From Allomyces arbusculus (lineage: Eukaryota; Blastocladiomycota; Blastocladiomycetes; Blastocladiales; Blastocladiaceae), in contig JADHYV010000027.1 in assembly GCA_027604705.1 (NCBI GenBank), positions 124,001 to 188,000 of the forward strand: DNA of 64,000 nt. Direction: 5' to 3'. The position numbers were made by a program, and so were the translations under genes. Each line of letters begins with the position of its first letter. Within the stretch, counting starts at the first letter, position 1. Shown here piece by piece: positions 1,908 through 43,466 of this stretch. The notes beneath the pieces were generated by a model that did no database searches, was not told the origin of the DNA, and saw only the letters and a list, made by a program, of their open reading frames with translations.

Positions 1908-2867
1908 ATGCCCTCCACTGTCACCGACGTCGAGCGGTCTGCTATGGTCTCCGACAAGGCCACCGCTGACGCTAGCACCGCACGCCAAGTGCACCGCCGC
2001 GTGATGAGGTTCCTTCCCGCGTCACCAACTAAGCGGTACCTGTGCATCAGCACGACCTTCATCGTGGTCGGCTGTCTCATCGCGTTTATGACGCTGTGGT
2101 TCATGGCCCAACCGCTCCGGCTCTCGCCCTCCCTCAAACGGCTCGATTACGTGTGGTCGAGCGCTGGCCGGCCCACCGACTGTTGGAAGAGCAACGGCAC
2201 GGTCGTTGCGGCAGCGTACCCGTGGATCATCCAGCTCAAGGTGACGAACCCCAACTTTTTTCAAATGATTGTCGAGGACATGGACGTGTCCGTCGAGTTT
2301 GCCGGGACCAAGTCCAGCGACCGCGCGTTCCTCGCGCGGGCGGAGCATATGCCATACTTCAACTTGTTGCCCGACAGAAAGCGGACCGACGGCGGGTGGA
2401 CCTACAGCAGGTGGACTGACAGAACCTTCAACCTGAAGGCCTTGGACGCGCTGCAGTGGGACGTGCGTGACCGCGCGCAGGCCAAGGCGCTCGCGGCGAT
2501 CTTGGTTCTGTGCAACGTGCCTGTCGCCGACTTGCCGCCCGTACTGCTCAACGCGACCTCGGCGGCCGACTTGCCCGCTGACCCGGTCGCACGTGATGCT
2601 GGCGTCCTAACATGGATGTTTGCCGCGCGTCAAGTGCGCGGTCTGTTCGGGCTGAGTATGACGCCAGCTCCCGGCGCGTTGACGGGTGATAAGCCCAGGC
2701 CGGGAAGCCATGGGTGGTATAGTCCTGATATTTATATGGGCGTTGGAGAGCGCGTTGCAGACGCGCTGTGCCCTGAGACGCGGTGGAATTCAACTGTGTT
2801 GGACCATATCAAACAGCTCGTGAACGTGACGAACATCGCGGGCCAGGAGGTGGCCAAGTCGGGATAG
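1908..2867 (+). CDS. LMP family copy 1: single-pass membrane protein with LEA-2/WHy-like segment, intact
   Basis: Intronless gene for 319 residues; start chosen at the first ATG (MPSTVTDVERS). Visible parts: a hydrophilic, probably cytosolic tail (1-43); one strong membrane helix at about 44-65 followed by QPLRL; then an external part carrying TNPNFFQMIVEDMDV, which resembles the NPN.f...v.dl core of LEA-2/WHy domains (as in plant NDR1/HIN1-like proteins). Next comes a block shared by all copies around RAQAKALAAILVLCNV and LPPVLLNATSAADLP, then an R/K-V-R/T-G-L-x-G-L motif and a C-terminal helix ending NVTNIAGQEVAKSG. Function is unknown. This is the only intact gene among the four in the two duplicated blocks. 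The LEA-2 relation is an inference from topology and motif and needs a profile search. Confidence 0.75.
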   Translation: MPSTVTDVERSAMVSDKATADASTARQVHRRVMRFLPASPTKRYLCISTTFIVVGCLIAFMTLWFMAQPLRLSPSLKRLDYVWSSAGRPTDCWKSNGTVVAAAYPWIIQLKVTNPNFFQMIVEDMDVSVEFAGTKSSDRAFLARAEHMPYFNLLPDRKRTDGGWTYSRWTDRTFNLKALDALQWDVRDRAQAKALAAILVLCNVPVADLPPVLLNATSAADLPADPVARDAGVLTWMFAARQVRGLFGLSMTPAPGALTGDKPRPGSHGWYSPDIYMGVGERVADALCPETRWNSTVLDHIKQLVNVTNIAGQEVAKSG

Positions 2868-3413
2868 TGCTGCCGAAGAAGTGCGATGATCTGTGAGTGA
2901 TGAAAAAAATGAGCGTCTACGACCGAAAACCGGTCTCTCTCCACCTTTGTTTGCGAGGGGCGAGCCTCCAGATGGACAGATGTGAGCTGCAAGTGTTACT
3001 CGAGCGAACAGGAGCGTCCAGGTGCATACTCGAAAAATTGGGGCAGCCACTTTTCCGAAACCAAGTGTGGCGACGTTGCTTTTGACCTCGAGACCGTGCA
3101 TCCAAAACCAGCGCAGGCCGTGCTCAGGCGGTGCCGCGGGGGCGCACAAAAATGCGTTATGGTCCGAGGAAAGAGCCAGCAACCTGGTTCATCCTCTGCA
3201 TCCGATGCCGTGCTGCACGATGCAGATGCAGGATGATGCGCGCGGGCATCGACAAGAATCAAACACGCGTGTCGCGGGCGCACGCCTTCGGTTCCCGTCG
3301 CCCGCCGCGCACTCCACGCGTCTGCAGCTATGGTTCGGTGTCATCCGTGTCGCCAAAACGCGCCCAAGAGTGCTGCTTCTCCCCGCAAGTCTGCGCTCAT
3401 TCTCAAATGCGCG

Positions 3414-3420
3414 TATAAAA
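3414..3420 (+). promoter_or_regulatory. TATA box of LMP copy 2
   Basis: TATAAAA lies 147 bp before the ATG at 3567, inside the conserved string GCGTATAAAAGCCTGCGG. The same string occurs at the same distance before copy 5 (23756), and a related TATAAGCCTGCG lies before copy 3 on the minus strand. Confidence 0.65.
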
Positions 3421-3566
3421 GCCTGCGGTCTGCTCAGGCCGCAATACTCCACCACCTTCGAACCGATCCAGCGTTTTATCATCCAACCGGCCGCGCTCGC
3501 TTGAACACAGCCATTCCGTCACGCCTGAGTCGACACGACGAGCTGACCCCTCACGACCATCCTATC

Positions 3567-4609
3567 ATGTCTGCCGCTCCTGACGTCGAGCAGCCGCGCA
3601 CCGCACTCGGAACCGACAAGCCCGCCAGTTCCAGTAGCAACGGCGTGCCGCGCCTCACTGATACGTGGCAGCGCAAGAGCTTGGCCGACCGATACTTGCC
3701 CGCCAACCGCGTCGTGCGGTATCTGTGCCTCGGAACGGTGCTCGCCGTGATCGTCTTCCTCATCACGTTCCTGGTGCTCTGGTTCACGGCCAAGCCGCTC
3801 TATTTTGTCTTGAAGATCGTACCCCCCACCACCTGGCGGACAGACGAGCGCCCGATCCATTGGTCGCGCGAAGGCACGATCGTGCAACACGACGACTTCC
3901 GGGTCTTCAGTTCGTGGGGCTTGAAGCTGTATGCCAAGAACGAGAACGCTTTCAACGTGCACATCGAGGTCCTGACCGTGACGGCCAAGTTCACGATGCG
4001 TACCGGCCGTGATGTGCAGTTTAGCACGACCACGTTCAATTATAGTGACTACGCGTTGCTCAACGTACACGCCAAGCAGTCGTTCACGACCAAGAGTAAC
4101 ATACAAGTCAATTGGGACCTGGCTGACCACGACCAGGCGATGGCGCTCGCGTCTTTGCTGGTCCTGTGCGGTGTGAACGCAACCAGCTTGCCCGCGCCGC
4201 TCAACAACCCAGCCGAGCTACCCACCAACGTCACGGCACCCGACGCCGGCTTCGTGCAGTGGTACTTTCCTGAGAACTGTTTGCATTTTGCTGGCTTTAT
4301 TGCTGAGAAACTCTTCGAAGCTCTGGTTGGTTTAGAGAAATTTGTCGATTCACTTCATCTCGTCGATACCTGCGACGAGTGACGGGTCTGTTTGGACTCG
4401 ATATGACACCGCCGCCGGGACGGCTCGCGTACTGGCCGGACGTGCGTGGCAACAGGGCGGCGTGGGGTGGAACGCAGCCGCACGCGGCGTCCGACTCGAT
4501 TATGGAAGTCATGTGTCCCGAGCACTTCATTCCTTATGTACCGTCGCATATTTTCCAGCTCGCGAATGTGACCAGGACTGTGTGCGAGGAGACGGGCAAG
4601 TGTCGCTAG
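3567..4609 (+). pseudogene. LMP family copy 2, disrupted by an internal insertion
   Basis: Starts MSAAPDVEQPRTALG and follows copy 5 closely: membrane helix around YLCLGTVLAVIVFLITFLV, external part with NENAFNVHIEVLTVTAKF, and ASLLVLCGVNATSLPAPLNN. At about 4268-4372 it carries 105 bp where copy 5 has 7 bp, a net gain of 98 bp. This changes frame and ends the reading frame at 4382. The C-terminal family sequence (TGLFGLDMTPPPGR to CEETGKCR) continues in another frame to 4609. I tested GT-AG introns across the insert and found none that restores an open frame, so I call it disrupted; an expressed truncated protein of 271 residues remains possible. The insert is AT-richer than its surroundings. 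Confidence 0.75.
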
Positions 4610-5343
4610 CATTTTCTGCTGGAGAGTTGCTGCAGCGCGAGAGCGTCCCGGCTACGAATGGGCAAGACTGAGAATAATGGGTAGATAAGGTGCCCAGCGT
4701 GTTTGTCAATATTTGTATCAACTTTTTTGATTGGTTGCCTGCGGTAAAAAATTTCGACTGCCTAACGTGCGGTGTCAGTGGCACGTTCAAACAAAATTGT
4801 TCTGCCCACCCCTTCTCATTTGACGAAGTCTCTTTCTCTCTCTGCCTGTGTCACCCACCCACAAAGGGCGCTATAGCAAGCTTGGCCGCTCCCCGGCGTA
4901 CAGGCTGCGGTGTTCGTGACACCCTCATGCCATCTGGGCCGAGACGGGGTTTTTCATGGGCACAACTGTATTGTGGTGATCCGAGCCGTCGGCAACAATC
5001 ACACACAACGTTGAGCATGCGCTGCGACGGGAGGCAAACCATGAGTATGCCGGCTGCGCATCAGAAGCGAAATGTGTGCGGATCAAACTGCTGCTCGAAA
5101 TGCAAAAAAATGGGGATGAGTGCATGGATGCGTGTTTGAGCGAATGTGAAGAAAGCTACGCAAACAATCGAGAAGAAGAAAACAGCGACCTCCGTCATCC
5201 GGCAAAAAAAAAAACGACCAACCACTTGCGTGACCGAGCCATGGCGCATCAGTCATAAAGTGAACCGAGGGCTGCCACATACCGCGCTCAAACATCCATC
5301 GACGCGCGCGCACCCAGCGCCCGAGCGGCATTCTGCGACCACT
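4610..5343. other. Intergenic, 3' end of duplicated block
   Basis: No supported gene. Sequence to about 5260 has a counterpart at 24851-25420; for example GCCGAGACGGGGTTTTTCAT occurs at both 4937 and 25091. After about 5260 the similarity stops and the 3' flank of the ATPase gene begins. Confidence 0.55.
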
Positions 5344-8300
5344 TCAGCGCTCCACGACAATGACACCTGGCACATCGTCACCATCATCATGCACGATGAC
5401 GCTCGCCACGGGCCACCACGCGCGCTTGGCGGCCTTGTAGGCCTCGGCGACTAGCATGAACACGACGAGCGTTGCGGCAATGTACCCCCACTCGTAATCA
5501 AACGGCGCGTGTTGGAAGACCTTGGTGTTGACGATGGGCAGATACGGTAGCGGTGCAATTACAACGAGCCCAACCATCATGGCAATCACCAGCACCTTGG
5601 CGTCGCGCCAGACGGTGTGCGCAACCGACTTGCGCGGCGACCGGCAGTTGAGTCCGTGCACGAGCAGGAGCAGCGAGAGCGTGACAAACGCGACGGCGCG
5701 CGCGCGGAACACGGCCTCGCACTCGGTCGTGAAGACTTTGTTGCACGAGGCCGTTGGCACGACCGAGTGGAGCGGGTCCACAGCGTGCAAATAGGCGACG
5801 GCCACAAACTGCACGAGCGTGAGCGCGCCCATGATCGCGCCATTGACGAGCGTGTCGGCCATGAGCTCGCGGGTGAAGACGCCGTGGCGACGCGGCGACA
5901 CGCGCATCACGTCGTCGTCGGCGGGCTCCACGGCCAGGGCGAGCGCAATTGGCGAGCTCGTGACGAGGTTGATCCACAGGATTTGGATTGGCGACATGGG
6001 GAAGATGGGCGACCCGTTGCCGTCGGAGAAGGCGAGGCCAATGATCAGCGCCACGACTTCAGAGACGTTGCCCGACAGCAGGTGCAGCGTAAATTTCTGA
6101 ATGTTGGCAAAGATACGACGGCCCTGCGCGATGGCCTGCACGATCGTCGCAAAGCAGTCGTCGGTCAGCGTCAAGTCCGACGCTTGCTTGGTCACGTCGG
6201 CACCGCCGAGGCCCATGGCAATGCCCACGTCAGCATACTAGGAACAGGTATGAAGAAAAGGCGTGAGGTGGAGAGCAATACGAACGGTACTGAGGAACTG
6301 CAACGAGAAAATGGCGGACCGAAATCGCGGGTGCATCGTTTACGCCATCGCCGGTCATGGCAACAATCTGTCCACGGCGATGCAGCGCCTGGATCATCTT
6401 GACCTTGGTCTCGGGCGAGCACCGCGCGAGCACGAGCGGCAACTCATCCATCGCATCCACCTGCTCATCCGACAGCGCGTCCCACTGCGGCGCGACCATG
6501 ACGCGCGCCGGATTTCCCACATCCGCGTCAGACAGCAGCCCAATCTGCCTGGCAATCGCCGCCGCCGTGACAGGATGGTCGCCCGTGATCATATGCACGC
6601 GGATCCCTGCAGACTGACACGCGGCCACGGCGCCCGCGGTTTCGGCGCGCGGCGGGTCCATGATCCCGACGAGACCGAGAAACACAAGGTCACGCTCGTA
6701 CTCGCTGCGCAGCGTCGGCTCCTGCAGCTTGAGCTCGTTGGTGTCCGTGATCGCCAAGTGCCGGTGCGCCAGTGCAAGCACGCGCAGACCCTGTGCGGCC
6801 ATGGATTCGGCGCGCGCCATGATCTCGGTCACGTACTCGGGCGTGAGCACGTGCACGGTTGCGCCGATTTGGTTGGCGTGGCCCGCAGCGGCATGCGCGA
6901 GGGCCGGGTCCGCGACCTGGTACGCGGCCGACCGTGCAACAATGGCCTCGACGGCGCCCTTGGCCAAGATCACAAACTGGTTGGCATCGAGGTCGCGGTA
7001 GACGACCGACATGCACTTGAGCGTTGCGTCAAACGGGTACTCGGCGACAAACTCGACGCTTTCGACCGAATCTTTGGTCACGCCCTGCCTGTGTGCGGTC
7101 ACGGCCAGCGCGATCTCGGTCGTATCGCCCGCACCCGAGTACATCTTGATGGTTGCATCGAGCGTGATCGAGCACGTGTGGCACAGGCCCATGACGCGCA
7201 GCACGGGCTCAAGCGCGGCGGGGGCCAGACCCTCGATCCCGCCCGCCGCATGGAACGCTCCCGTGATCGTGATTTCCGCGCCGAGCACCCACCCGGAAAC
7301 AGCGGCCATGGTCCCCTCGGTCAGTGTGCCCGTCTTATCAGAGCAAATATGCGTGACCTGGCCGAGCTCCTCGAGAGACGCTAGCCGGCGCACAATTGCG
7401 CGCTGCTTGGCCATGGTCGAGACGCCAAACGCCATGATGACCGTGAGCACGGCTGGTAGACTTTCAGGCAAGATGGAAACGGCCGTGGCAATCGCGTAAA
7501 GCAGCACTTGCGTGTCGGTGAGCTCCCACTTGTTGACGGCGAACACGATCACGCCCAGAACGAGCGCAACGCCTAAACACACCATCATCATGCGCATCAT
7601 CGACCGCTCGAGCGGCGTCTTAGCCTCGGCGCGCGCCTTGGCGCCCGCGGCCACCTGCGCGGCCATGGTCCCAATCGCCGTCTGCATGCCCGTGGCTGTG
7701 ACGATACCCTTTCCGCGGCCGTATGCGATTGCCGTCGACTTGAAGGCCATGCAGACTTGGTCGCCGAGCGGCAGGATTGCGTTGGCGGGTATATCCGCAC
7801 GCGGCACAATCGGGTCAATCGACTTGCGAACGGCAATGGGCTCGCCCGTGAGCAACGCCTCGGTCGCGGCCAAATTGACCGCGTCAATCACGCGCAGATC
7901 GGCGGGCACTTGGTCGCCCTCGGTCAGCAGAACCAAATCCCCAGGCACGAGCAGCGGCGCGGCAATCAAGGTCGGCGCCATCCCGCCGCGAATCACCATG
8001 GCCGTCGGCGACGCGAGCTTGCGCAACGCCTCCATGGTCTTTTCCGACTTGTACTCTTGCCGGAACCCGAGCAGCGTGTTAGTCAAGATCACGACGACGA
8101 GGACGGCGCCCTCGACCCAGTCGCGCGCGATCAGGGCAATTGTGAGCGCGACGGCGAGAATCCCGTTCATGGGGTTGGCGAGGTTGCTGATGAGCACGCG
8201 CCAGGCCGACGGGCCATTGTCGCCGCCGAGATCGTTGGGGCCGTACTTGGCGAGCCGGCGCGCGGCTTCATCGGGCGCAAGACCCACGACCAGGTCCGTG

Positions 8301-8527
8301 TCGAGCATGCGCGCGACTGTTGCGAGATCATGCTCGTACCAGCGCGGGCCATGGCCGGTCGTGGCCTCGTTATCGTCAACGTGCACGACGAGCCGGTCCT
8401 TTTCATACGAAGTGTCGCGCGACAGGGTCGCGTCCGTATCGACGCGCTCTAGCGCGATGGACGGCTCGAGAATTCTCACCGTCACGTCTTCGGCATCCTC
8501 CTGACGGGCGCGCTGGTGCGAGGTCAT
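5344..8527 (-). CDS. P-type cation ATPase, ENA/type IID-like (possible Na+/K+ efflux pump)
   Basis: Two exons, 8527-6320 and 6237-5344, with an 82-bp intron; 1033 residues. The intron joins GDGVNDAPAIS to YADVGIAMG, restoring the hinge motif. The start is the first ATG (MTSHQRARQ); there is no ATG upstream in frame. Visible motifs: N-terminal cation ATPase segment (ARRLAKYGPNDL), LLTGEP in the actuator domain (TGE kept), PESLPAVLT in M4, ICSDKTGTLTEG with phospho-acceptor Asp397, a KGA motif (LAKGAVEAIV), MITGDHP and GDGVNDAP, and C-terminal membrane helices M5-M10. NTLLGFRQEYKSEKTMEAL and YPFDATLKCMSVVY resemble fungal ENA pumps more than SERCA or PMR1, so a plasma-membrane Na+/K+ efflux role is plausible but inferred. 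It has no operon-like neighbour. Confidence 0.93.
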
Positions 8528-11032: not shown

Positions 11033-12007
11033 ATGACCGGCACCCACGAAACGACGACCGAACCCAACTACGGCCTCGCGTTTGCCGTCGCCATTGGCGC
11101 GGGCCTATCGACTGCGTTCGGGGCCGCGTCCGTCAAATTTGGCTCGCTGCAATCGCCTCGCTTCCTCGCCACGGGCATGGCACTCGCTGGCGGCGTCATG
11201 CTTTACGTCTCCCTACTTGATATCTGGGTCGAATCCAAAATCTCGTTCGAAGAAGCCTGGCCGGGCGAGTCGGGCACCAAGCGCGCCTACATTGCCGCGA
11301 CGGGCATGTTTTTCGCGGGCGCACTCCTCGCTGTCGGGATGGAGGCCGGCGTCAATTGGCTCGAGACGCGGCTGTTGCGGCGCGGGAGCGCGTCGCACCG
11401 GCCGCCCGCATCGCCGAGTGTAGAGGATCCCGAGGCGGCGGCGACGACGGCAGTCAAGGACAAGCCGCGTAGTAGCGACGCGGGCGACGCGGCGCAGACG
11501 GCCGTGCAAGTCATGTCGGCTGAGGACCGCGCGAGCCTGATGCGCACGGCCATGGTCACAGGAATTGCGCTCACGATCCACAACATCCCTGAGGGTCTGG
11601 CCACGTTCATTTCCATGTGCTCCAGCGTCGCGTCGGGTTTACCGCTCGCAGTAGCGATCGCCGTGCACAATATCCCCGAGGGGATTTGCGTTGCCGTTCC
11701 GATTCTGTACGCGACGGGGTCCAAGTGGAAGGCGTTCTGGTGGGGCACGATCACGGGCGTCTCGGAACCTGTTGGCGCCCTGCTCGGATTTGCGATTTTG
11801 AAGTCAACCGACGCGGCCAACTTGGCGACCGTCTACGGCGTCCTGTTTGGCCTTATTTCGGGAATTATGACTTATATCGCCATCGCCGAGTTGATTCCGA
11901 CGGCATTGGCGCACCACAAGAACCCGCGCGATGTGGCTGTCATGGTGTTTGCCGGGATGGCGATCATGGCTGCGAGTCTCGTCTTGTTCGAGGTCGCGGG
12001 CGCATAA
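11033..12007 (+). CDS. ZIP-family metal (zinc) transporter
   Basis: Single-exon gene for 324 residues starting MTGTHETTTEPNYG. ZIP transporters carry Zn2+ or related divalent metals into the cytosol, across the plasma membrane or out of organelles. Eight membrane segments are visible. The two metal-site helices carry the signature twice, ALTIHNIPEGLATF and AIAVHNIPEGICVA, as expected for TM4 and TM5 of the ZupT/ZRT3/ZIP8-like branch. A hydrophilic loop of about 75 residues (roughly 105-180) separates TM3 and TM4; it is Ala/Asp/Arg-rich rather than the usual His-rich loop. TM6-TM8 follow (GTITGVSEPVGALLG, GIMTYIAIAELIP, AGMAIMAASLVLFEVAG). Family is secure; the compartment is not shown by the sequence. 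A vacuolar or Golgi exporter like ZRT3 is the nearest idea. Confidence 0.93.
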   Translation: MTGTHETTTEPNYGLAFAVAIGAGLSTAFGAASVKFGSLQSPRFLATGMALAGGVMLYVSLLDIWVESKISFEEAWPGESGTKRAYIAATGMFFAGALLAVGMEAGVNWLETRLLRRGSASHRPPASPSVEDPEAAATTAVKDKPRSSDAGDAAQTAVQVMSAEDRASLMRTAMVTGIALTIHNIPEGLATFISMCSSVASGLPLAVAIAVHNIPEGICVAVPILYATGSKWKAFWWGTITGVSEPVGALLGFAILKSTDAANLATVYGVLFGLISGIMTYIAIAELIPTALAHHKNPRDVAVMVFAGMAIMAASLVLFEVAGA

Positions 12008-20133: not shown

Positions 20134-21093
20134 CTACTGGCACTTGCCAGTCTCCTCGCACACGGCCCTGGTCAAGTTTGCAAGCTCGAGAATGTGCTTA
20201 TGCACGAAATCGCGGGGTGTAGACAAATTTCTGTGGCACACGACATCCATAATCGAGGGGGACACACCCGACCCGCCCCACGCCACCTTGCCCATGTTCG
20301 GCCGCCAGTACTCAATCCGGCCAGGCGGCGGCAGCGTCATGTCGAGCCCAAGCCAGCCACTGACACGACGCGCTTCCAGGTACCACCGCACGATCCCGGC
20401 GTCGGGCGCCGACGCGTTGACCGGTAGCTCGGCCGGGTTGTTGAGCGGCGCGGGAAGGCTGGTCGAGTTCACGCCGCATAGGACGAGCAACGATGCGACG
20501 GCGTTTGCCTGCTCGTGATCGGCCAGGTCCCAGCCGATTGGAAGAGAATACGTGTAAATGTTCTTGGTCGAGGATCCGGGTTGCATGGACAGCGCCGCGG
20601 GAGTGGGAGAAAGGGGCACGTTGGGATTGGCGGGGTTCCAGTTGGACCTGGTCGTGCCAAACTGCACGTCATGGCCGGCGCGTGCCGTGAACTTGGCCGT
20701 GATGACGAGGTCCTCGATGTTCACGGGGAACGCGTTGTCGTTGACCGCAAACAGCACACAATCCCAGAGAGAAATGGCACGCACAGCTGTGCCGTTTCGA
20801 TACCACTGAACCGCGCGCTCGTCCCACTGCAAGTTGGTCGGGGGCACGATCGCGTTGATGAGATAAAGTGGCTTGGTCGTAAACCAGAACACCAGAGACG
20901 TGACGAGAAAGACGATCACGGAGAGCACTGCGGCAAGGCAGAGATACCGCGCAACGCGGTTGGTGGGCACGAATCGGCTTGCCGTTCTCTTCAGCTGCTG
21001 CATGCTTGCAAAATGCGCGTTATCGTCAGCATTAGTGGTTTTGTTGGTTTCGAGGGCGGTGCGCTGCTGCTCAACGTCGGGCGCGGCAGGCAT
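20134..21093 (-). CDS. LMP family copy 3, intact, inverted
   Basis: Intronless gene for 319 residues beginning MPAAPDVEQQRTALE. It keeps the full family plan: hydrophilic tail, RYLCLAAVLSVIVFLV membrane helix, KPLYL juncture, external DNAFPVNIEDLVITAKF block, then a copy-specific Asn/Pro/Ser loop, WDLADHEQANAVASLLVLCG, LPAPLNNPAELPVN, a W-Y-L-E-A-R-R-V-S-G segment, DMTLPPPGRIEYW and the C-terminal helix ending CEETGKCQ. It is closest to copies 2 and 5 but lies on the opposite strand, just before the second duplicated block. Two Cys in the C-terminal CEETGKC motif could form a disulfide if external; this is inference. Function unknown. Confidence 0.75.
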   Translation of the reverse strand: MPAAPDVEQQRTALETNKTTNADDNAHFASMQQLKRTASRFVPTNRVARYLCLAAVLSVIVFLVTSLVFWFTTKPLYLINAIVPPTNLQWDERAVQWYRNGTAVRAISLWDCVLFAVNDNAFPVNIEDLVITAKFTARAGHDVQFGTTRSNWNPANPNVPLSPTPAALSMQPGSSTKNIYTYSLPIGWDLADHEQANAVASLLVLCGVNSTSLPAPLNNPAELPVNASAPDAGIVRWYLEARRVSGWLGLDMTLPPPGRIEYWRPNMGKVAWGGSGVSPSIMDVVCHRNLSTPRDFVHKHILELANLTRAVCEETGKCQ

Positions 21094-21260
21094 GATGGGA
21101 TGAGGTGGGCGCGTTGTGTTGATCTCGTCGTGTCGCTCGAGGTTCGAGCGAGGTTCAGGAGCTGGCAGGCCAAAGAGAGCACACGTGGGCCGTTGGATCT
21201 ATGAAGCGGAATCGGTTCAAGAGCAGTGAACTGTTGCGGCTGGTACCGCGGGATCGCAGG

Positions 21261-21266
21261 CTTATA
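21261..21266 (-). promoter_or_regulatory. TATA-like element of LMP copy 3
   Basis: On the minus strand the string reads CATATAAGCCTGCG, matching the TATAAAAGCCTGCGG core before copies 2 and 5. It is about 170 bp upstream of the ATG. Confidence 0.5.
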
Positions 21267-22226
21267 TGTATGAGCCGTTGAGCGGTGGTAAAGCACAACA
21301 CAGCACTGCAGCTTGGGCGACCGGGGGCGCGCGTTTTTGATGCATGGCGACGTCTTTAGCATTCTCCCTGCACGGTGCTTGCAGCAAAAACAACAGGACG
21401 AGGTTTTGGCAGTTTTCTCGAAACGAACGCACACGCACGCTGTGCGCGTGCTGAATGCTTCCGCAAAAATATGTCGTCGCCACACCTGGTTTAAGAGTGT
21501 GGTGGCTGCACTTGTCATATTCCAGCTTTCCCCTGGTCGCTCCCGCGCTCGTAAGGGCTCGGAGTGCAAGGACGTGCAGAGCGTGATGCGTGTCCTGGGT
21601 AAATGCTAGAGCGCTGCGATTGGTTGAGTGAGCGAAAAGAGGCGTGAAGAGTAGTGATTACATTGTGCATTCTGATGTTGTGAACCGTGCGTGAATGAAG
21701 CGCACAACTCAACGTGATCATCAACGTGCAACTTTTTAGGAACGGTTCTGGCGCTATTGCCCCTGCCCCGTCCCACATCCAGTTGCGCGCTGCTAGTCAG
21801 GTGTGCAGGGGCACGACACTTTGAACGATCAAACCTGAAACAATTTGAGTCACGTGCGTATCCCATCCAGAGCGCATCAAGCATCATTTCAAAAGGCAAC
21901 GCACGTGAGAGCGCACGCATCAAGCTGAAACTGCCGAAAGCCGCGCCATCGGGCGCCCGAGAACAACAATGGAACCATTCGGGAACGGTTCGCCACCCAA
22001 CTGCAAGGCGCATGCGATCTAACACCCAGCCGTTGCTCCTCGGTTTCCCGGGACGCCGACGCGCGTCGCCCGTACAATTTGTATCTAGTTTGAGCACGCC
22101 CCTGTCCTGCTCCGCTCACATCGACACGACGCGCGAGCCAGTCCTCCATCCAACACAATTGAACGATCACCGCACACTTTCTGACGACCCGCCGATACTT
22201 CCAAGCCAACCCAACTCTTGTCGACA

Positions 22227-23147
22227 ATGCCCTCCTCTGTCACCGACGTCGAACGGTCTGCTATGGTCTCCGACAAGGCTACCGCTGACGCGAGCACCGC
22301 ACACCAATAGCAACGCCGCGCGAACCGGTTCCTCCCCGCATACCGACCCAAGCGGTACCTGTGCGTTGGCACGGCCCTCGTCGTGGTCAGCTGTCTCATC
22401 GCGCTCCTAACGCTTTGGTTCAAGGTCGAGCCTCTAAAGTTTTGGCCCACCCTCAAGCGGCTTGATCACTTGTGGCCGCTCAATCATGGGCCTACGGACT
22501 GGTGGACGAGTCGCGGCACGATCGTCAAGGCGGCGCACCCGTGGGTGATCCAGCTCATCGTGAGGAATGACAACACCTTTGAAATGATTGTCCAGGACCT
22601 GGACGTGTCGGCCGAGTTTGCCGCGACCAAGACCAACGAACACGCATTCTTCGCGCGGGCCGAGCACATGCCGCGGTTCAACGTGCCGTCCGACGGCGGG
22701 TGGCACTTTAATTTGAACGCCTCGGGCGCGCTGCAGTGGGACGTGCGCGACCGCGCGCAAGCCAAGGCGCTCGCAGCGATCTTGGTCCTGTGCAACGTGC
22801 CTGTCACCGACTTGCCGCCCGTGCTGCTCAACGCGACGTCGACGGCTGACCTGCCCACCAACCCGGCCGCGCGTGACGCCGGCGCCCTGACGTGGACGAT
22901 TGCCGCGAGGAAAGTGCGCGGTCTGGTCGGGCTGGGGATGACGCCGGCGCCTGGCACGCTGACGGGCAACTGGCCGAGTCCTGGAAGCCATGTTTGGTAT
23001 AGTCCCGACATTCACGAGGGCGTTGGCGAGCGCATTGCGGACGTGCTGTGCCCGGAGACGCGGCGCACTTCAAATGTGTTGGACCACATCAAGCAGCTCG
23101 TCAACGTGACGAACATTGCGGGCCAGGAGGTGGTCAAGGCAGGTTAG
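22227..23147 (+). pseudogene. LMP family copy 4, one premature stop
   Basis: Duplicate of copy 1, beginning MPSSVTDVERSAMVSDK. It is colinear with copy 1 to the end (VTNIAGQEVVKAG) apart from a few short indels, such as a shortened loop after FNVPSDGGW. A TAG at 22308-22310 interrupts it after about 27 codons, before the membrane helix; copy 1 has a sense codon there. The rest of the frame is open and well conserved, so the loss is recent or the stop is tolerated. Re-initiation at a downstream ATG would drop the membrane anchor. The stop sits as CAA TAG CAA, which resembles a known leaky context. Confidence 0.75.
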
Positions 23148-23755
23148 TGCTGTCGATAGAGTACGATGATTTGTGAATGATGAAATAGATGAGCGCCTGT
23201 GGCCGAAAGGCGGTCTGTCCACTTTTGCTTGCGATGGGCGAGCCATCAGATGGACAGAAGCCAGCACACGCATGCGTGCTCCCGCTCAGCACATGCCATT
23301 CAGACTGTGAGCCGATCCTGGTCTGAAGGCGGACATAATAGTTTTTTTTGCGACCTGCTACTCTAGCAAACAGGGGCGAACAGGTGCATGCTCGGAAAAT
23401 CTGAGCAGCCACTCTTCTAAAACCGGTTGTGGCGACGTTGCTTTGACCAAAACGCCCATCCAAAGCGAGCGCACTACCTGCTCGGCCGGGGCGTGGGGGG
23501 CGCACAATAAATATGTTATGGTTCGAGAAAACGGCCAGCACTCTGGTTCATCCTCTGCATCCGATGCCGTGCTGCACGATGCATTTGCAGGATGATGCGC
23601 GCGGGCATCAATAATCAAACACGCGTATCGCGGGCGCACGCCTTCGGTTCGCACTCCACGCGCCTGCAACCATGGTTTGGTGCCATCCGTATCGCCAAAA
23701 CGCGCCCAAGAGTGCTGCTTCTCCCCGCAAGTCTGCGCTCAGTCTCAAATGCGCG

Positions 23756-23762
23756 TATAAAA
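23756..23762 (+). promoter_or_regulatory. TATA box of LMP copy 5
   Basis: TATAAAA at 147 bp before the ATG at 23909, within the same 18-bp string as before copy 2. Confidence 0.65.
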
Positions 23763-23908
23763 GCCTGCGGTCTGCTCAGGCCGCAATACTCCACCACCTT
23801 CGAACCGATCCAGCGCTTTATCATCCAACCGGCCGCGCTCGCTTGAACACAGCCATTCCGTCACGCCTGAGTCGACACGACGAGCTGACCCCTCACGACC
23901 ATCCTATC

Positions 23909-24850
23909 ATGTCTGCCGCTCCTGACGTCGAGCAGCCGCGCACCGCACTCGGAACCGACAAGCCCGCCGGTTCCAGTAGCAACGACGCGCCGCACCTCAG
24001 TGATACGTGGTACCGCCCGAGCCTGGCCGACCGATACTTGCCCGCGAACCGCGTCGTGCAGTATCTGTGCCTCGGCACGGTGCTCGCCGTGATCGTCTTC
24101 CTCATCACGTTCCTGGTGCTCTGGTTTACGGCCAAGCCGCTCTATATTCGCTTGAATATTGAGCAACCCACCACCTAGCGGTCGGACGAGCGCCCGATCC
24201 AGTGGTCGCGCGAAGGCACGATCGTGCAACCTGACGACTTGCGGGTCCCCCAAGCGTGGGTTTTGAAGCTGTATGCCTATAACAAGAATGCGTTCAAAGT
24301 CCACATCGAGGACCTGGCCGTGACGGCCAAGTTCACGGCGCGTCCCGGCCATGATGTGCAGTTTGGCACGACCAAGAATATGTACCCCCCATTGCTTACC
24401 GTACCCGCCAAGCAGTTGTTCACGAACACGGGTCGTATGCAAGTCAGTTGGGATCTGGCTGATCACGACCAGGCAATGGCGCTCGCGTCTTTGCTGGTTC
24501 TGTGCGGTCTGAACGCGACCAGTCTTCCCGCACCGCTCAACAACGCGGCCGAGTTACCCACCAATGTCACGGCGGACGATGCCGGTTTCGTGCAGTGGTA
24601 CTTGGAAGCTCGCCGAGTGACCGGTCTGTTTGGGCTCGATATGACGCCTCCGCCAGGGCGGATTACATACTGGCCTGATGTGGGTGGCAACAGGGCGGCG
24701 TGGGGTGGATCGCAACCGCACACGACGTCCGACTCGATTATGGCGGTCGTTTGTCCCGGAAAACACGCGCTGGATTATGTGCCGTCGCATATTTACCAGC
24801 TCGCGAACCTGACCCGGACCGTGTGCGAGGAGACGGGCAAGTGTCGCTAG
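23909..24850 (+). pseudogene. LMP family copy 5, one premature stop
   Basis: Duplicate of copy 2, starting MSAAPDVEQPRTALG. A TAG at 24176-24178 replaces a Trp codon (TGG in copy 2) shortly after the membrane helix. Beyond it the frame is open to the family C-terminus CEETGKCR. Unlike copy 2 it has no insertion at the ARRVTGLFGLDMTPPPG region, so it shows the ancestral arrangement there. As annotated, translation would yield about 89 residues: the tail plus the membrane anchor. Confidence 0.75.
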
Positions 24851-25401
24851 CACTAGTGCTGGAGAGTTGCTGCAGCGTGAGCGCCGCCCCGGCCAAGGAT
24901 GAGCAAGACGGAGAATAATGGGTGGAGAAGGTGCCCAACTTGTTTGTGAAATTGTTCCGCCCACCCCATCTCTGTTGACGAGCTCCCTTTATCTCTCGCC
25001 CGTGAGTCACTCTCACAGGGAACTAAAGCGTGCCTGGCTGCTCGCCGGCGTACAGGCTACGGTGTTCGTGACGCTCTCTTGCCATCTGGGCCGAGACGGG
25101 GTTTTTCATGGGCACAGTTGTATTGTGGTGATCAGACGCGTCGACAACAATCACAAACGAAGATGAGCATGCGCTGCGACGGGAGGCAAACCATGAGTAT
25201 GCCGGCCGCGCATCAGAAACGATATGACAGGCGGATGAAGTGCAAAAAATGGGGATGCGTGGGTGGATGTCAGTGTGAACAAATGTGAGAGATTAGAGCG
25301 CAAACAAGTGACACAACCAAGTGACAAGTAGCGGACGCGTACCAGCGACCTCCGTATTCTGGTACGAAAAAATACAGCCACCGGAGCGACCGAGCCATGC
25401 A

Positions 25402-26486
25402 TCAGTCATGACATAAAGCTGTTGACCTGACGCGGGGTACCATGAACCGGTCCAGCTCAGCGACCATGTGCCACGGAATAGTGCTCAGCGAGGCGCCAGT
25501 ATCCACCATCGCCTTGACCTCCAAAGGCCGCTGACGGCCATGCTCCTTGTGCGCGACCAAAGTCGGATACACGTTCTTGCAGGGCACTGCGCGATTACCC
25601 CGTTGTCCACTGGCGACAAATCCCGGCGGGAATCGCGGTCCTCGTGGGCTGACAAAGTCGCGCGACGCTTATTCCTGGACCAGCGTGCCTTGCGGCCGCG
25701 CTTCTTGGCCGGGTGCATGGGCGCGGGTTCATGAGCGGCGATTGCCTCCTTCTCAGTGGGTGCAAACGCTTGATGCCAATGAGCGCGCACAATATCGCGG
25801 GCAGGGACCATCAGATCATAGCACTTTTCCACGGCGCGTGCACTATCACACCCGCTGACTTCGACCATGCAACGCACGATTTGGAGTTTGAGACTCGTTT
25901 CGTGCTCAACCGCCAGGACGGGTCAGGGAAATACATTGTCCTCTTCCACCATAGTCGATGGGCGAGAGTTGGCCAGACCGGCCACCTGGCGGATTTGGAA
26001 CAACCGGCAGCACACGTTTTCCCATGAGGTACGGTTGGATGTAGAAATAGTCCGTCAAACGGTCCAAGTAACTCTCATCATGATATGGGGTCACGGCATC
26101 CATGAAGGGACGATACGTTTTATCATCTGGCTCCCCGGGAGAGAGAAGGCGCTCAATATGGAACCCATCAATGCAGATGTTGGACACGATGCCTGGAGGA
26201 GCATGGTCGCCAAGGTTGTGCCTGTTGGCCAATTGCCCTTGAAATGCAAGATAGAATCGTGCGTATCTAAGATGCTGCGTTGCTCTTCCTCGGGCGACAA
26301 TCAAATGGAGATGTTGATGGCCAAGGCGAGCCAGTGGGTCCGCATCAAGGCAATATGCCAAGGACGGCCATGTTCGTCCACTTCTACGACCAGTTCTTTG
26401 GGCTTGGTTAGTCCCGTGAGCAGGGCATGCACCTTGGTAAGGGCGAGCTCAAGCTTCATAGTCCGTTGGATGTCCTTTGGATCCAT
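25402..26486 (-). mobile_element. Fossil LTR-retrotransposon fragment (Ty3/gypsy-like gag and protease parts)
   Basis: On the minus strand, reading from about 26486 down to 25402, are gag-like coding remnants followed by a retropepsin-like stretch with the aspartic-protease signature VDTGAS. The order gag then protease fits a Ty3-type element. No reverse transcriptase, integrase or LTRs are visible, so this is an internal piece, broken in several places and probably old. It directly abuts the end of the second duplicated block. Confidence 0.6.
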
Positions 26487-37400: not shown

Positions 37401-37453
37401 CCTCACCAAGGCCGACCCGACCATCAACGCATCACTCCCACCAACTCACGCCC

Positions 37454-38314
37454 ATGACCGACGTCGAGCAGCAGCAAAAGCATGACGGCGCTGAAAACGA
37501 CAAGCCCACGCTTTCCGACGGTGCCACTCCGCTGCGCACAAGTTGGGCGCGCAGACTGGTCCCCACGAACCGTTACGCGCGGTATCTGTGTTTCGGCATG
37601 ATCTTTGCCGTGGTCGTCTTCGTCGTGGTGTTTCTCGCGTTGTGGTTCACGACAGAACCCATTGCGATCGCTCTGACCCTGACACGGCCCGAAGCGTACC
37701 AGGTCGACGCGGTCCCCGTGCAGTGGATGCTCAAGGGCGACACCGAGATTATGCCGGGGCAGGGGCCGTGGGGCATCAAGGTCTGGACGCGCAACGACAA
37801 CGTGTTTGACGTGACCTTCGAGGGCGTCGACATGACAGCCATGCTTTACGACAACGACGGCCGCAACGTGGTGCTCGGCAAAACCATGAGCCCGCAACCA
37901 GAGGTATGGGCCCCCGCCAAGCGCAAACTCGAGGTCCAGGCAATGTCGTCGCTCCCGCTGGTGTGGGACCTGTCGATTGCCAAGCAGGCCCAGTCGCTCG
38001 CGTGGCTTCTCGTGCTGTGTGGCGTCAATGCCACGAGTTTGCCGGCGCCGCTCACGTCGCGGTGGGATTTGCCGGACCCGCGTTACAATGCACCGGCCAT
38101 GGTGAAGTGGCAGGTTCGTGCTCGCCGCGTGCGAGGCCTGATGGGGCTCCCAATGCCGTCCACGGTCGACGCGCCGCAGGGGCTTTCGGTCAACTCGCCG
38201 CAATCTCTCAATTGGGTATTTTGCGATATGAATCGCGGGAAGGTTGCGGAACACATTCAGCAACTCGTGAACCTAACGGTGCGTGTGTGCGAGTCGGGGA
38301 TGTGCGAATATTGA
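37454..38314 (+). CDS. LMP family copy 6, intact
   Basis: Intronless gene for 286 residues beginning MTDVEQQQKHDGAEN. Hydrophilic tail, basic juncture (ARRLVPTNRYARYL), membrane helix around FGMIFAVVVFVVVFLALWF, external part with RNDNVFDVTFEGVDMTAML, the ASLLVLCG-equivalent SLAWLLVLCGVNATSLPAP, VRARRVRGLMGLPMP, and a C-terminus ending VCESGMCEY. It is more diverged than copies 1-5 and shorter in the loop before the last helix. Its 5' flank belongs to the module shared with copies 7 and 8, suggesting common control. Confidence 0.72.
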   Translation: MTDVEQQQKHDGAENDKPTLSDGATPLRTSWARRLVPTNRYARYLCFGMIFAVVVFVVVFLALWFTTEPIAIALTLTRPEAYQVDAVPVQWMLKGDTEIMPGQGPWGIKVWTRNDNVFDVTFEGVDMTAMLYDNDGRNVVLGKTMSPQPEVWAPAKRKLEVQAMSSLPLVWDLSIAKQAQSLAWLLVLCGVNATSLPAPLTSRWDLPDPRYNAPAMVKWQVRARRVRGLMGLPMPSTVDAPQGLSVNSPQSLNWVFCDMNRGKVAEHIQQLVNLTVRVCESGMCEY

Positions 38315-38639
38315 ACAAGCATAGAGGTGCAGCGTCGACGGCACAACAGTTGGTTGAGAATTGGCAGAAGATTGATTTTTTTCAGTATGAGATAAACACA
38401 ACTCGTGGTCCCTGAGCGCCTTGCTTGTGACATTTCAGTTCTCAGGGTGCATCAGCTTGACCAAACTGTTGACAGTGCCTCGACGTCAAGTGGCAACGCG
38501 ACGCACTTCATGCCCACATAACGTGCTGGCGTGCACGATCGCTCGGAAGGGGACTCTATGCGCGCGCGTCTCGCGAACGGCCTGCGCGCCACCACGTACC
38601 CACCCGAGGGCGGAGGGAATGCAGAGATTGCACCGAAGC

Positions 38640-39060
38640 TGCTTGCGCGTCGTGCAGGTGAAAGTAACGCACGCCCATCCCCGAATCACGATCAACTGTC
38701 AGTTGGCGTCGCCACAGTGACAGTACGCACCCATTTTTTTTTCGCCAACCGAGAGAACAACGCGCTGTTGGGCGAAAACCTATCGTGCGCGCACTCTGCT
38801 TCCGTTCCAGAACAGAGGCCCTTCCCGGCGACGCGACGACGCACGACGCTGCAACGCGCAGGATAAAGGCAAAACGTGTCGGCGAACACGACTACTAGGC
38901 AGGGTTGCTCGACACGCATGGATGTACCATGCCTGACCAGTTTCTTGCATGTAGCACATGCTGCCACGTCGCCACAGAGGTCGATACATAGAAAATACGC
39001 GCGCGCCAGCGCGGTCCCAGCACTGTCCACCCGTTCAGATCAGTCAGAACCAAGTATTCT
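38640..39060 (+). repeat. Upstream module of LMP copy 7 (unit 2 of 3)
   Basis: Same ordered landmarks as at 36950-37400, including AACGCACGCCCATCCCCG, CCAGAACAGAG, and GCGGTCCCAGCACTGTCCAC close to the gene. The TATA-like core is less clear here (ATAGAAAATACG). Confidence 0.7.
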
Positions 39061-39095
39061 CCTCAATACGCATCAGTTCGACCAACTCCACTCCC

Positions 39096-40007
39096 ATGAC
39101 CGACGTCGAGCAGCAGCGCGACGCGCTCACCGCCAAGCCTAGCACCGACCATGACCCTACCGCCCCGTCTCCACGAACACGCGTCGCTCGCGTATTCGCA
39201 GATCGCCGCGTCAAGTACCCGCTCGTGGCCATTCTTGTCGCCCTCATCATTACCGCCGCGACCCTCCTCACGCTCTGGTTCACCAAGCAACCTCTTTTTC
39301 TCGTCCCGACCATTGCCCGCCCTGACATCGGGGGCCAAGACCCGATGCAATGGACCGCCAACGGCACTGTCATCACGCCCGTGCACCTGTGGGGCATGGA
39401 ACTGATTTTCTACAACCCGAACCCGTACCAGATGATCGTGTCGGACCTCGAGATGACCGTGACCTTTGCGGGCCCAAAGGGGTACCACGTGCCATTTGGT
39501 ACCGCGCACCCGCCCACGGGCAAGGGCGCGAACCCGTCGATCACAATCCCCGCGCGCCTTTCTGCGCCATACGGCGCCGGCCTGTTCGTCCGGTGGGACC
39601 TGGCCGATGATGCGCAGGCGCGCGCGCTCGGCGCGCTCTTGGTCGTGTGCGGTGTGAGGACGGCAGACTTGCCGAGCGGTCTTCATCCGTTGACGCATCC
39701 GCCGGCGCTCGATGCGTCGGGCACAACGTACTTTAGTATTCGTGCCATGACGTCGTGGCGCGCGCGCGTCGGGAAAGTGACGGGGATGTTAGGGATCGAT
39801 GTGGCGACCAAGGAACAGCGGGTGCCATGGCCAGATGAGAATAAGTACCAGTCGCTGGGGTCGTGGTGCGTGGGGACGAGTCAGATGCGGAGTTCGACGA
39901 TCACGGCGGTCGTGTGTCCGGACGAGGGGGTGGTTGCGGAGCATGTGGCGAAACTGGCGAATGTCACGATCAAGGCGTGCGAGGCAACGGGGAAGTGTCG
40001 CGGGTAG
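39096..40007 (+). CDS. LMP family copy 7, intact
   Basis: Intronless gene for 303 residues beginning MTDVEQQRDALTAKP. Membrane helix is LVAILVALIITAATLLTLWF, followed by KQPLFLVPTI. The external part holds YNPNPYQMIVSDLEMTVTF, the clearest NPN-type LEA-2/WHy-like signature in the array, then WDLADDAQARALGALLVVCG, a segment with GKVTGMLGIDV, and a C-terminal helix ending CEATGKCRG. Closest relative is copy 8. Function unknown. Confidence 0.74.
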   Translation: MTDVEQQRDALTAKPSTDHDPTAPSPRTRVARVFADRRVKYPLVAILVALIITAATLLTLWFTKQPLFLVPTIARPDIGGQDPMQWTANGTVITPVHLWGMELIFYNPNPYQMIVSDLEMTVTFAGPKGYHVPFGTAHPPTGKGANPSITIPARLSAPYGAGLFVRWDLADDAQARALGALLVVCGVRTADLPSGLHPLTHPPALDASGTTYFSIRAMTSWRARVGKVTGMLGIDVATKEQRVPWPDENKYQSLGSWCVGTSQMRSSTITAVVCPDEGVVAEHVAKLANVTIKACEATGKCRG

Positions 40008-40089
40008 AGAACGTGGAGGGCGGTGGAGTGTGGATTTGTTTGTGGATGATCAGGAAGTCGCGCGGATTGTATTGATGCTAACCAACAAA

Positions 40090-40113
40090 CAATGCAGCTC
40101 GATAGCTGCATTG
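40090..40113. other. Perfect 10-bp inverted repeat with CGAT loop
   Basis: CAATGCAGCT at 40090-40099 and its exact reverse complement at 40104-40113, separated by CGAT. It lies 83 bp after the stop of LMP copy 7. It could be an RNA hairpin in the 3' UTR or a protein-binding palindrome. Confidence 0.7.
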
Positions 40114-40489
40114 CTGTTCATATTGGATCCTCGGTTATGCTTGCTCTCGTTGCGCTCACATTCGCCCCGCTCAACCTCGGCGACTCAACCCCATCATACC
40201 TGAAGCCGATGGTATCGCGCTCTCCTCCACAATGTGAGTGAGAGGGAAGGACAATCCGATTGCGATTCAGGGCTGCCCAGGCGGAGCAAATGATGAGGCA
40301 TCCGCGTTTGGATCGTGCTGCTTCGACAGCGCCATTCTGCTCTCGGACACAGACCCGCGTGGGAGGGCGTCAGCGTGAGCCAGATCTGGCTTTTCGCGCT
40401 GATCTCTGCGCGTGATGTTGGCCGTGCGCTTCCACCCCGTGGTGGCGCTCGCATTCACGCGTGCAAGATGTTCAAGCGATCTCGACGCT

Positions 40490-40860
40490 GCTCGCGTCGT
40501 TCAGGCGAAGGTAACCCAGTCAGTGGGCGCCGCCACTTCAGCGCCCACCGATTTCTGGCCAATGGAGAGACCAACGGGCTGCGTGCACCTGCTTCCTTTC
40601 CAGAACAGAGAACTTTTTTGGCGCACAGCAATGCACGACGCTGCGACGCGACGCGCAGGATAAAGGCAAAAATGTGTCAGTGAACATGGCCAGGTGCAAT
40701 GCTCACACGGATGTGCATGCGCTGGATTTGACCAGGTCAGTGCAAGTTCCTGCAGTCGCTCACCGCCGAAGTCAATAAATAGGTGCACGCCGGGGCAGCC
40801 GTGGCCCTGTCCACCTGTTCAGATCAGCCAGAACCAACATTTCTCCTCGACGACGCTATC
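40490..40860 (+). repeat. Upstream module of LMP copy 8 (unit 3 of 3)
   Basis: Most diverged of the three modules but still shows CCAGAACAGAG, the GGCGCACAGC string, a TATA-like AATAAATA at 40774-40781, and CCTGTCCACCTGTTCAGATC before the former start codon. Confidence 0.65.
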
Positions 40861-40888
40861 AACGCATCTCCACAACGAACCCACTCCC

Positions 40889-41706
40889 ACGACCGACGTC
40901 GAGCACCAGCGTGATGCGCTCACCGCCAAACCCAGCACACCCAACGCAGACCATGACCCCGTCTGCACGCCGTCCTCACGCACGTGCATCGCCCGCGCTT
41001 TCTCAGACTGTTGCGTCAAGTACCCCCTCGCAGCCATTCTCGTCGCCCTCACCATCACCACCGTGACCCTCCTCAGCTCGGTTTTGCGACGCAACCAATC
41101 CTCCTTGTCCCGACGATCCTGCGCCCCGCGACCCCAAAAAACCTCCAACCCATCAAATGGACCGCGTCCGGAACCACCATCACGCCCGTCTACCCCTGGG
41201 GGGTGAACGTGGCCATCTACAACCCGAACCCGTTCCCCATGACTCTGCACGACCTCGACATGACCGCCATGTTCTCCGGACCCCACGGGTTCCCCGTCCA
41301 TTTCACCACTGCGCACGTCGTCACCAGAGACCACTACATTGACCGGTCCATCCGCGTCCCTGCGTCAAGTTTGCCGGCGGCACTGAATGTGCCGGAAGAG
41401 TTGCCCGACTTTACGGGATACGATTTGCGCGGGCCCGGGTTAATGAAATGGGGAATGGACGCGCGCAAGGTGACCGGGTTCCTTGGGCAAATGACGCCGC
41501 CGCCGGGCGAGTTGGTGGAGGTGGACCAGTTGCACGGAGCGGCGTCTGGGTGGGGTGGTGGGTCGCCAAATGCTCAAGTGGACTGGATCATGGTTGCCGT
41601 TTGCCCTTGGTCGCGTTGAAACCGCACGGTCGCGCCGTCAGAGCATATTGTGCACCTGGCAAATTTGACGATGCAGGCGTGCAAGGAGATGGGGATGTGT
41701 CGTTAG
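40889..41706 (+). pseudogene. LMP family copy 8, decayed
   Basis: Clearly related to copy 7 at the 5' part and copy 9 at the 3' part. The expected ATG is ACG at 40889. A small deletion at about 41075-41085 shifts frame at the end of the membrane helix. The external part then reads on (YNPNPFPMTLHDLDMTAMF) but about 35 codons, including the conserved VLCG block, are missing before LPAALNVPEELPDF. A stop at 41617-41619 precedes the last helix, whose sequence (SEHIVHLANLTMQACKEMG) is still legible to 41706. At least four lesions make it a pseudogene. Confidence 0.85.
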
Positions 41707-42554
41707 AGAAATGGGTTTGTGGTCGTGTGGGTAGTTTGTGGAGCGGCATAAGGTGCGCGAAGCATCGGCGGGTGCACACATGTAACTGCGGTCCAGTCAC
41801 GGTGGGATTGTTGTGGATGATCGTGAAGGCGCGTGCATCATGTTGGTGTAAAACAGGTTTGATTGCATCCAATGCATCAGCGGCGCGACAGAACCTTTGT
41901 GACAGGCAATGTGATGATTGAACATATGCATTGCAATTTCTTGTCTGCAGTTTCGCTCATGACTGACCCGTTTAAACTGGTCTCATCACACACTCGGCGG
42001 TATTGTACTCTCCGCTTTGCCAAGGCGTCGTATCACGCTGAGACAGAAAATATCAGCAATAACGGTGCCGGATTGTTAGTTTTATCAATCGACCAGACAC
42101 TACCAAACACTCTCAAATAGCCAGCAGCTCAGGCAGTCACCCGCTTTGGACATGGCGCCACATTTTTCCGAACATACTTTTCTGTTCGAGAACATGCCCA
42201 GGGACCCCGATCGCCCGCTGCAAGACACAGGACTGGGCGCGCGCACACGAGTGCTCATCACAAACCTACGCCCACATAACGATGATTGGTGGACGCCACG
42301 GGTGCCGCACTGCCAACGCTCATCCCGGTGTCGGACGCGCGGCGTTTCGAAGCACAGTGCTCTCCGTGTAAAGGCGACGAGAACAGGCCCGTGTCCGTTC
42401 TCTCGTTCCTATTGTTCTCCCCCACGGCGACCCTGCTCTTCATCCAGCTTTCCTGCGCTCACGATCCATGTACGCGCGCAGCAGCATTTCTTCGCGACGT
42501 TTTGCTTTTCTAACGTGATTATCGACGCGCGCGCGTAATAGTATTCGCCGGGCC
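41707..42554. other. Intergenic, 5' flank of LMP copy 9
   Basis: No supported gene. I do not see the upstream module of copies 6-8 here. The first 400 bp are AT-richer than average. Confidence 0.45.
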
Positions 42555-43466
42555 ATGCCTACCGCTTCAGACGTCGAGTGTCAACTGCACAACGCTGTCC
42601 CCGACAAGCCCGCATCTGGCGATGCGGATGCGCAACCGCGCAAGAACCTCGTCCACCGAGTGATCCCCGCCAGCCGCGGTGCGCGGTTCCTGTGCATCGG
42701 CACCGTTCTCGTCGTGCTCGTCCTGCTCATCACGTTCCTAGCGTTCTGGTTCTCGGCCGACGCGCTCTTCATCGTGCCGGTGCTGCGCACGGCGATTCCG
42801 GGCAAGAATGTCGACCCCGCACAGTGGACGCGCGACGGCACTGTGATTCGCAGCGTGCCCCACTGGGTTATTGACATGTCAGTCGAGAACCGCAACAAGT
42901 TTGCCATGACCATCGAGGACCTGGCCGTCACGGCCAAGTTTGCGACGCGGGAGAACCGCAACGTCTTGTTTGGCAAGCCCACTGCCCAGCAGTCACGCGT
43001 GACCGTTCATGTCCCGGCCAAGGAGGAAATCGACGTGAAAATCGAGCTCGACGTGCACTGGGACTTGGCCGATCACGAGCAAGCCAACGCGCTCGCGTCG
43101 CTGCTCGTCCTGTGTGGCATCAGCGCATCGAGTTTGCCGGCGCCGCTGAATGTGTCGGACGAGTTGCCCGACTTTGACAGACCCGAGCCCGCGATTGTGA
43201 AGTGGGACTTGGACGCGCGGAAAGTGACTGGGTTCCTTGGGCTTGAGATGACGCCGCCACCAGGCGAGATCGTGGTCGGGGACCAGGTGCATCGCGCGGC
43301 GTCTGGGTGGGCCGGTCGGGCGCGAGTCTTCCCGGAGGATTGGATCGCGTTTGCTGTTTGCCCTTATTCGATCGCGAATGCCCGCACGGCTGCGCCGTCA
43401 GAGCATATTGTGCGCCTGGCAAATTTGACGATGCAGGCGTGCGAGGAGACGGGGAAGTGTCGTTAG
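42555..43466 (+). CDS. LMP family copy 9, intact
   Basis: Intronless gene for 303 residues beginning MPTASDVECQLHNAV. Basic juncture then membrane helix FLCIGTVLVVLVLLITFLAF, external block NKFAMTIEDLAVTAKF, WDLADHEQANALASLLVLCG, LPAPLNVSDELPDF, KWDLDARKVTGFLGLEMTP and C-terminus CEETGKCR. The C-terminal half is nearly the same as copy 8, the N-terminal half closer to copies 2 and 5, which suggests exchange between paralogs. It is the last member of the array in this window. Confidence 0.75.
   Translation: MPTASDVECQLHNAVPDKPASGDADAQPRKNLVHRVIPASRGARFLCIGTVLVVLVLLITFLAFWFSADALFIVPVLRTAIPGKNVDPAQWTRDGTVIRSVPHWVIDMSVENRNKFAMTIEDLAVTAKFATRENRNVLFGKPTAQQSRVTVHVPAKEEIDVKIELDVHWDLADHEQANALASLLVLCGISASSLPAPLNVSDELPDFDRPEPAIVKWDLDARKVTGFLGLEMTPPPGEIVVGDQVHRAASGWAGRARVFPEDWIAFAVCPYSIANARTAAPSEHIVRLANLTMQACEETGKCR

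Follow-up and report, generated by a model that had tools for sequence, protein, structure and literature searches.

TMEM106B of human is a membrane protein with single-pass type II topology. The LEA-2 membrane domain is best known from plants and from human lysosomes, in the latter case through TMEM106B. In two sources, the luminal region of TMEM106B is assigned to the LEA-2 superfamily and given a long lipid-binding groove (PMC12297828), and the protein is predicted to be a LEA-2 lipid transfer protein (PMC10340176). Predicted LEA-2 domains have also been reported from yeast, one in Vac7 and three in Tag1, and both proteins have been tied to phosphatidylinositol 3,5-bisphosphate (PI(3,5)P2) and to the ending of autophagy (PMC10340176; PMC12297828); their place is given as the vacuole (PMC12297828). 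In both texts, TMEM106B, Vac7, and Tag1 are predicted to be lipid transfer proteins with LEA-2 domains, and Levine (Proteins 2022) is cited by both (PMC10340176; PMC12297828). In this study, a stretch of 64,000 nucleotides from Allomyces arbusculus (assembly GCA_027604705.1, contig JADHYV010000027.1, positions 124,001 to 188,000 of the forward strand), referred to below as the window, was analyzed for a family of nine homologous genes with predicted membrane protein products.

We consider it probable, at roughly 60%, that these are tandem genes for type II membrane proteins carrying a strongly diverged LEA_2 domain on the luminal or external side, for which lipid handling would be the most likely role. 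No description of such a family was found in the open-licence literature (titles and abstract starts).

Nine loci and the anatomy of their products

Nine family loci were recovered by tblastn with the five intact proteins as queries against the window, the weakest of the listed matches between copies being that of copy 1 to copy 8 (5.4e-12). A family profile run over the six frames of the window returned the same nine loci and no tenth. The initial annotation of this DNA had placed nine homologous, intronless genes at these positions, five of them intact and four decayed, and this census is confirmed here, with the intronless structure established for the intact copies. Each of these is a single open frame without an intron, encoding 286–319 amino acids (aa): copy 1 (1908–2867, plus strand, 319 aa), copy 3 (20134–21093, minus strand, 319 aa, head to head with copy 4), copy 6 (37454–38314, plus strand, 286 aa), copy 7 (39096–40007, plus strand, 303 aa), and copy 9 (42555–43466, plus strand, 303 aa, modelled in full). 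Identity to copy 9 is 33–41% for the other four. The remaining four of the nine, all on the plus strand, are broken: copy 2 (3567–4609), copy 4 (22227–23147), copy 5 (23909–24850), and copy 8 (40889–41706). The family extends over 42 kb, as annotated, but falls into three sub-clusters of two (1908–4609), three (20134–24850), and four loci (37454–43466), with other genes in between.

The five intact proteins begin with a tail of about 40 residues, which carries an invariant DVE near its start and leads into a hydrophobic helix with an invariant W-F at its end. The top hydrophobic stretch begins at residue 43–51 in all five, in agreement with the membrane helix near the N-terminus recognized initially. 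Lysine and arginine (K/R) number 4–5 in the N-terminal flank of the helix versus 1–4 in the 25 residues that follow it. A glycosylation sequon, N-[LV]-T, not mentioned in the initial annotation, was identified in the C-terminal helix of all nine copies. Taken together, the tail, helix, charge bias, and sequon fit a type II protein, the C-terminal part of which would be luminal or outside the cell. The last two cysteines, which probably form a disulfide, are present in seven of the nine copies (one residue closer in copy 6) and are jointly lost in copies 1 and 4.

The motifs that had been proposed for the family hold only in part. NPN itself is confined to copies 1, 7, and 8 (3/9); its general form is N-x-N, which is invariant in all nine aligned rows. 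Only copies 2 and 5 carry RRVTGLxGLDM in its exact form. For CEETGKC, the exact form occurs in copies 2, 3, 5, and 9 (4/9) and an altered one in copies 6, 7, and 8, whereas copies 1 and 4 lack it.

Likeness to LEA_2 in profiles and models

The direct signal of the Pfam LEA_2 model was weak (among the matches listed, two of the nine members with a best E of 0.044; copy 9 scored 13.5 bits, E 0.11), and profiles were therefore compared with real LEA_2 domains, using hhalign with each E-value given for a single comparison. The LEA_2 set comprised 25 domains from 19 of 56 bacterial genomes, of which 23 were used and two below the cut-off were dropped. The full-length family profile aligned to LEA_2 with a score of 34.0 (E 8.7e-5, probability 60%), and the external part of the family with a score of 33.9 (E 5.7e-5, probability 66%). 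None of 300 column shuffles scored as high (mean 10.7, standard deviation 2.0, maximum 17.6), and the reversed profile scored 16.0 against LEA_2. As controls, profiles of three further beta-sandwich families were made by the same procedure: ApaG (21 of 22 rows used), PCuAC (16 of 17), and CARDB (16 of 20; three partial rows and one with stops were dropped). Their scores were 11.2, 12.9, and 10.3, respectively. The likeness of the family to LEA_2 in profile comparison is thus beyond chance and beyond that to these three beta-sandwich families.

In copy 9, a low-stringency alignment to LEA_2 covers residues 93–242 (42831–43280, plus strand), the confident part being residues 104–147. It keeps the LEA_2 order of N-x-N strands, helix, last strands, and final G-E, its second half being weak. 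The relation to LEA_2, which the initial annotation had proposed from topology and motif, is supported by these sequence comparisons at the profile level only, and is too distant for the LEA_2 model of Pfam to reach its cut-off.

Several other matches were taken as due to chance or to the membrane helix. In Pfam these were CoxIIa (E 0.3 and 1.4, on the membrane helix), Dit-like_CBM2 (0.064), and HPAT (0.11); in NCBIfam they were VirB3 (E 0.0052, two of the nine members), SepX/GlpR (0.024), and a Trp-rich protein (0.062). A sequence search of the PDB with copy 9 gave no match other than cytochrome oxidase IIa, via the membrane helix (E 1.1). When the nine members were searched against Pfam, the listing at E <= 10 comprised four families, and neither TMEM106 nor Vac7, both presumably present in the library, was one of them; the HMMER filters drop most Pfam matches above 0.1.

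The LEA_2 fold comprises about seven strands arranged as a beta sandwich, the last ones being preceded by a helix. A model of copy 9 was built from the nine window sequences, with a mean predicted local distance difference test (pLDDT) of 65 and a predicted template modelling score (pTM) of 0.60. It contains a helix at residues 41–66, eight strands within 72–170, a helix at 174–186, strands at 214–220 and 223–225, and a C-terminal helix at 283–299, and is consistent with the LEA_2 fold. Foldseek ranked the TMEM106B luminal domain first among the PDB matches of this model (probability 1.00, E 3.8e-3), with a template modelling (TM) score of 0.48 over the target. For copy 3, the external part was modelled (mean pLDDT 57); this second model was poor and unspecific. 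Structure prediction had been suggested at the outset as a check for a beta-sandwich; on such models, structure alone would not decide the identity of the domain.

Duplication, chimerism, and decay

Copies 1 and 2 with their flanks (1615–5256, plus strand) and copies 4 and 5 with theirs (21930–25409, plus strand) are a duplicated two-gene module, newly recognized here, with 75–87% DNA identity over four aligned pieces. Downstream of copies 2 and 5, the segments 4794–5256 and 24949–25409 share 75% DNA identity, so that the duplicated module extends past the two genes. In the family tree, copy 1 was grouped with its sister copy 4 (100/99), and copy 2 with its sister copy 5 (96/94) and then with copy 3 (95/99); copy 8 was grouped with copy 9 (91/98), based on the C-terminal part of copy 8. 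Copy 7 was long-branched, and two of the six inner branches were open. The upstream 500 bases are common within the groups 1/4, 2/5, and 6/7/8, and comparison of these bases among the copies gave no shared match for copies 3 and 9.

A further new finding is that copy 8 combines parts of types 7 and 9 in one chimera, with a deletion at the joint. The segment 40580–41303 is 68% identical to the copy 7 region, and 41362–41778 is 77% identical to the copy 9 region. In sliding windows, copy 7 was nearer up to about 41300 (with a tie around 41103–41179) and copy 9 from about 41364; past the gene, from about 41760 onward, both similarities were low and that to copy 7 nominally higher. The joint lies between about 41303 and 41362 and coincides with a missing central block, WDLAD-VLCG. 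The upstream DNA of this pseudogene resembles that of copy 7, the ATG is missing at the expected place, the frame changes near 41077, and one stop is present. Unequal exchange within the array would be the simplest account of such a chimera.

Copies 4 and 5 are open except for a single in-frame stop each. Copy 2 has 105 bases (4268–4372) where copy 5 has 7, and the frame is lost through this net insertion of 98 bases. The inserted DNA is A+T-rich, with 42% guanine plus cytosine (GC) versus 60% in the preceding 700 bases. No second copy of it was found within the window, and no clear terminal repeats were found on it. Five GT-AG pairs in the region would restore an open frame if spliced; an intron, though conceivable, was not accepted, because the splice sites of all five pairs were judged unconvincing and none yields the sequence of copy 5. 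The mixture of expansion and decay that had been described for the family is borne out by the four broken copies, the module duplication, and the chimeric copy 8: the cluster grew and decayed via duplication and recombination.

Nonsynonymous (dN) and synonymous (dS) divergence was computed by the Nei-Gojobori method (NG86) for 10 of the 36 possible pairs, copy 1 being compared with copy 4 alone. In all ten, dN was lower than dS, and the description of the family as fast-evolving is not supported. The two youngest pairs are 1/4 (dN 0.164, dS 0.410, ratio 0.40; one member broken) and 2/5 (dN 0.128, dS 0.229, ratio 0.56; both members broken). In four pairs made up of intact copies, where dS is 1.08–1.37, open frames of about 300 codons have been kept, the ratios being only rough because dS of the old pairs is near saturation.

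Elsewhere in the window, a P-type cation ATPase (5344–8527, minus strand) was identified in two adjoining open frames matching the N-terminal and C-terminal Pfam parts, which are probably one gene with an intron. A ZIP zinc transporter occupies a single open frame at 11033–12007. Another repeated gene group was observed at 45895–49590, with stretches 69–78% identical in DNA, a TGASSGIG motif in two of them, and an apparently partial unit near 47479–47638. We take this motif to be typical of short-chain dehydrogenases; a Pfam scan of one frame in the group (47936–48388) returned no family. A tRNA-Ser gene (60344–60425, minus strand), detected by ARAGORN and Rfam, was the sole Rfam match at the gathering threshold within the window.

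Alternative readings and comparison with described systems

A number of results weigh against a diverged LEA_2 domain on a type II protein. The curated Pfam cut-off for LEA_2 (PF03168; 25.4 bits) was not reached, the family consensus matched no Pfam family, and the chance-level VirB3 match had a lower E than the best one to LEA_2 in Pfam. The confident part of the profile match is just 39 columns around N-x-N, single members scored 13.6–30.2 against LEA_2, and the family profile retrieved no PDB chain at E <= 10. Neither model had a Foldseek match at E 1e-3 or better, and the TM score of the TMEM106B match was just 0.25 over the query. The copy 9 model also matched ApaG and other sandwiches with probabilities of 0.8–0.9 and had the plant protein LEA14 (1yyc) at rank 35 (probability 0.14); the copy 3 model had ASF1 first and TMEM106B eighth (probability 0.47). 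As to topology, the charge bias of copy 1 is slight (5 versus 4 K/R), and in two of the five intact copies, 1 and 9, a second, weaker window also exceeds the hydropathy threshold (start at residue 198 or 180); it falls in the later helix.

Some of these points would suit a general immunoglobulin-like beta-sandwich unrelated to LEA_2, serving as a surface adhesin or in recognition, with the likeness arising by convergence of short motifs. Several unrelated beta-sandwich proteins match the copy 3 model to a similar degree, glycosidase and integrin domains stand beside ApaG among the Foldseek matches of the copy 9 model, and the missed Pfam cut-off and the short confident match point the same way. 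However, the LEA_2 score lies about 11 standard deviations above the shuffles, whereas the three control families, ApaG, PCuAC, and CARDB, stay at shuffle level, and we regard an unrelated sandwich as unlikely. The low identity of the intact copies to copy 9, the 7/9 chimera, and the loss of the cysteine pair in copies 1 and 4 could also suggest a diversifying repertoire of surface or allorecognition receptors, with new variants made by recombination between copies. Such a repertoire appears distinctly improbable when set against the excess of dS over dN in every computed pair (although whole-gene ratios can miss selection on single sites) and against the broken state of the sole chimera seen. 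It might be supposed instead that the cluster is on its way out, its members being relics of a family with little function left, since four of the nine copies are broken and the ratios of the two youngest pairs, with one and two broken members, are 0.40 and 0.56. Yet the open frames are retained in the four intact pairs, the topology signals and the sequon are kept, and we give this account very little credence.

Under the preferred reading, that of membrane proteins with a diverged LEA_2 domain, the tail of about 40 residues would be cytosolic and a single membrane helix would place the LEA_2 beta-sandwich in the lumen or outside the cell; behind the sandwich comes a C-terminal helix peculiar to the family, with the conserved sequon and, in seven of the nine copies, the cysteine pair. 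By analogy with TMEM106B, Vac7, and Tag1, the domain would most likely bind or sense a lipid, either on the inner side of the vacuole or on the outer side of the plasma membrane; lipid transfer by the helix-anchored domain would be an alternative to sensing. The cytosolic tail might report the lipid state or fix the place of the protein, and copy number would shift by segmental duplication, unequal exchange, and decay. A bolder proposal is a long shot: the family would be a fungal branch of the TMEM106B-type luminal lipid sensors, not described before and amplified in tandem, in which unequal exchange goes on yielding chimeric external domains on an unchanging membrane anchor and thereby a repertoire of lipid or partner specificities. 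If the preferred reading is true, the LEA-2 membrane domain exists here in a strongly diverged and multiplied form beyond the reach of Pfam LEA_2, the paralogs form a natural series for asking what a LEA-2 domain binds, and the locus is a clear case of membrane protein gene birth, fusion, and death inside 42 kb.

In viral contigs, 45 pattern matches gave no confirmed relative. One match in a gammaproteobacterial bin (genome contigs, with copy 9 as the sole query) had stops inside it and was judged to be chance. With the Pfam LEA_2 family, the window family has in common the N-x-N strand pair, the strand-helix-strand order, and the final G-E; it differs in that a long stretch separates the helix from the last strands, and in its extra C-terminal region. 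A short tail followed by one helix is found in the plant NDR1/HIN1-like proteins, as in the window family, and Vac7 and Tag1 are unlike it in size and tail. Human TMEM106B (8b7d), with its luminal beta-sandwich, gave the copy 9 model its best match in Foldseek; unlike TMEM106B, the window family has a C-terminal helix of its own, a sequon, a cysteine pair, and many tandem copies.

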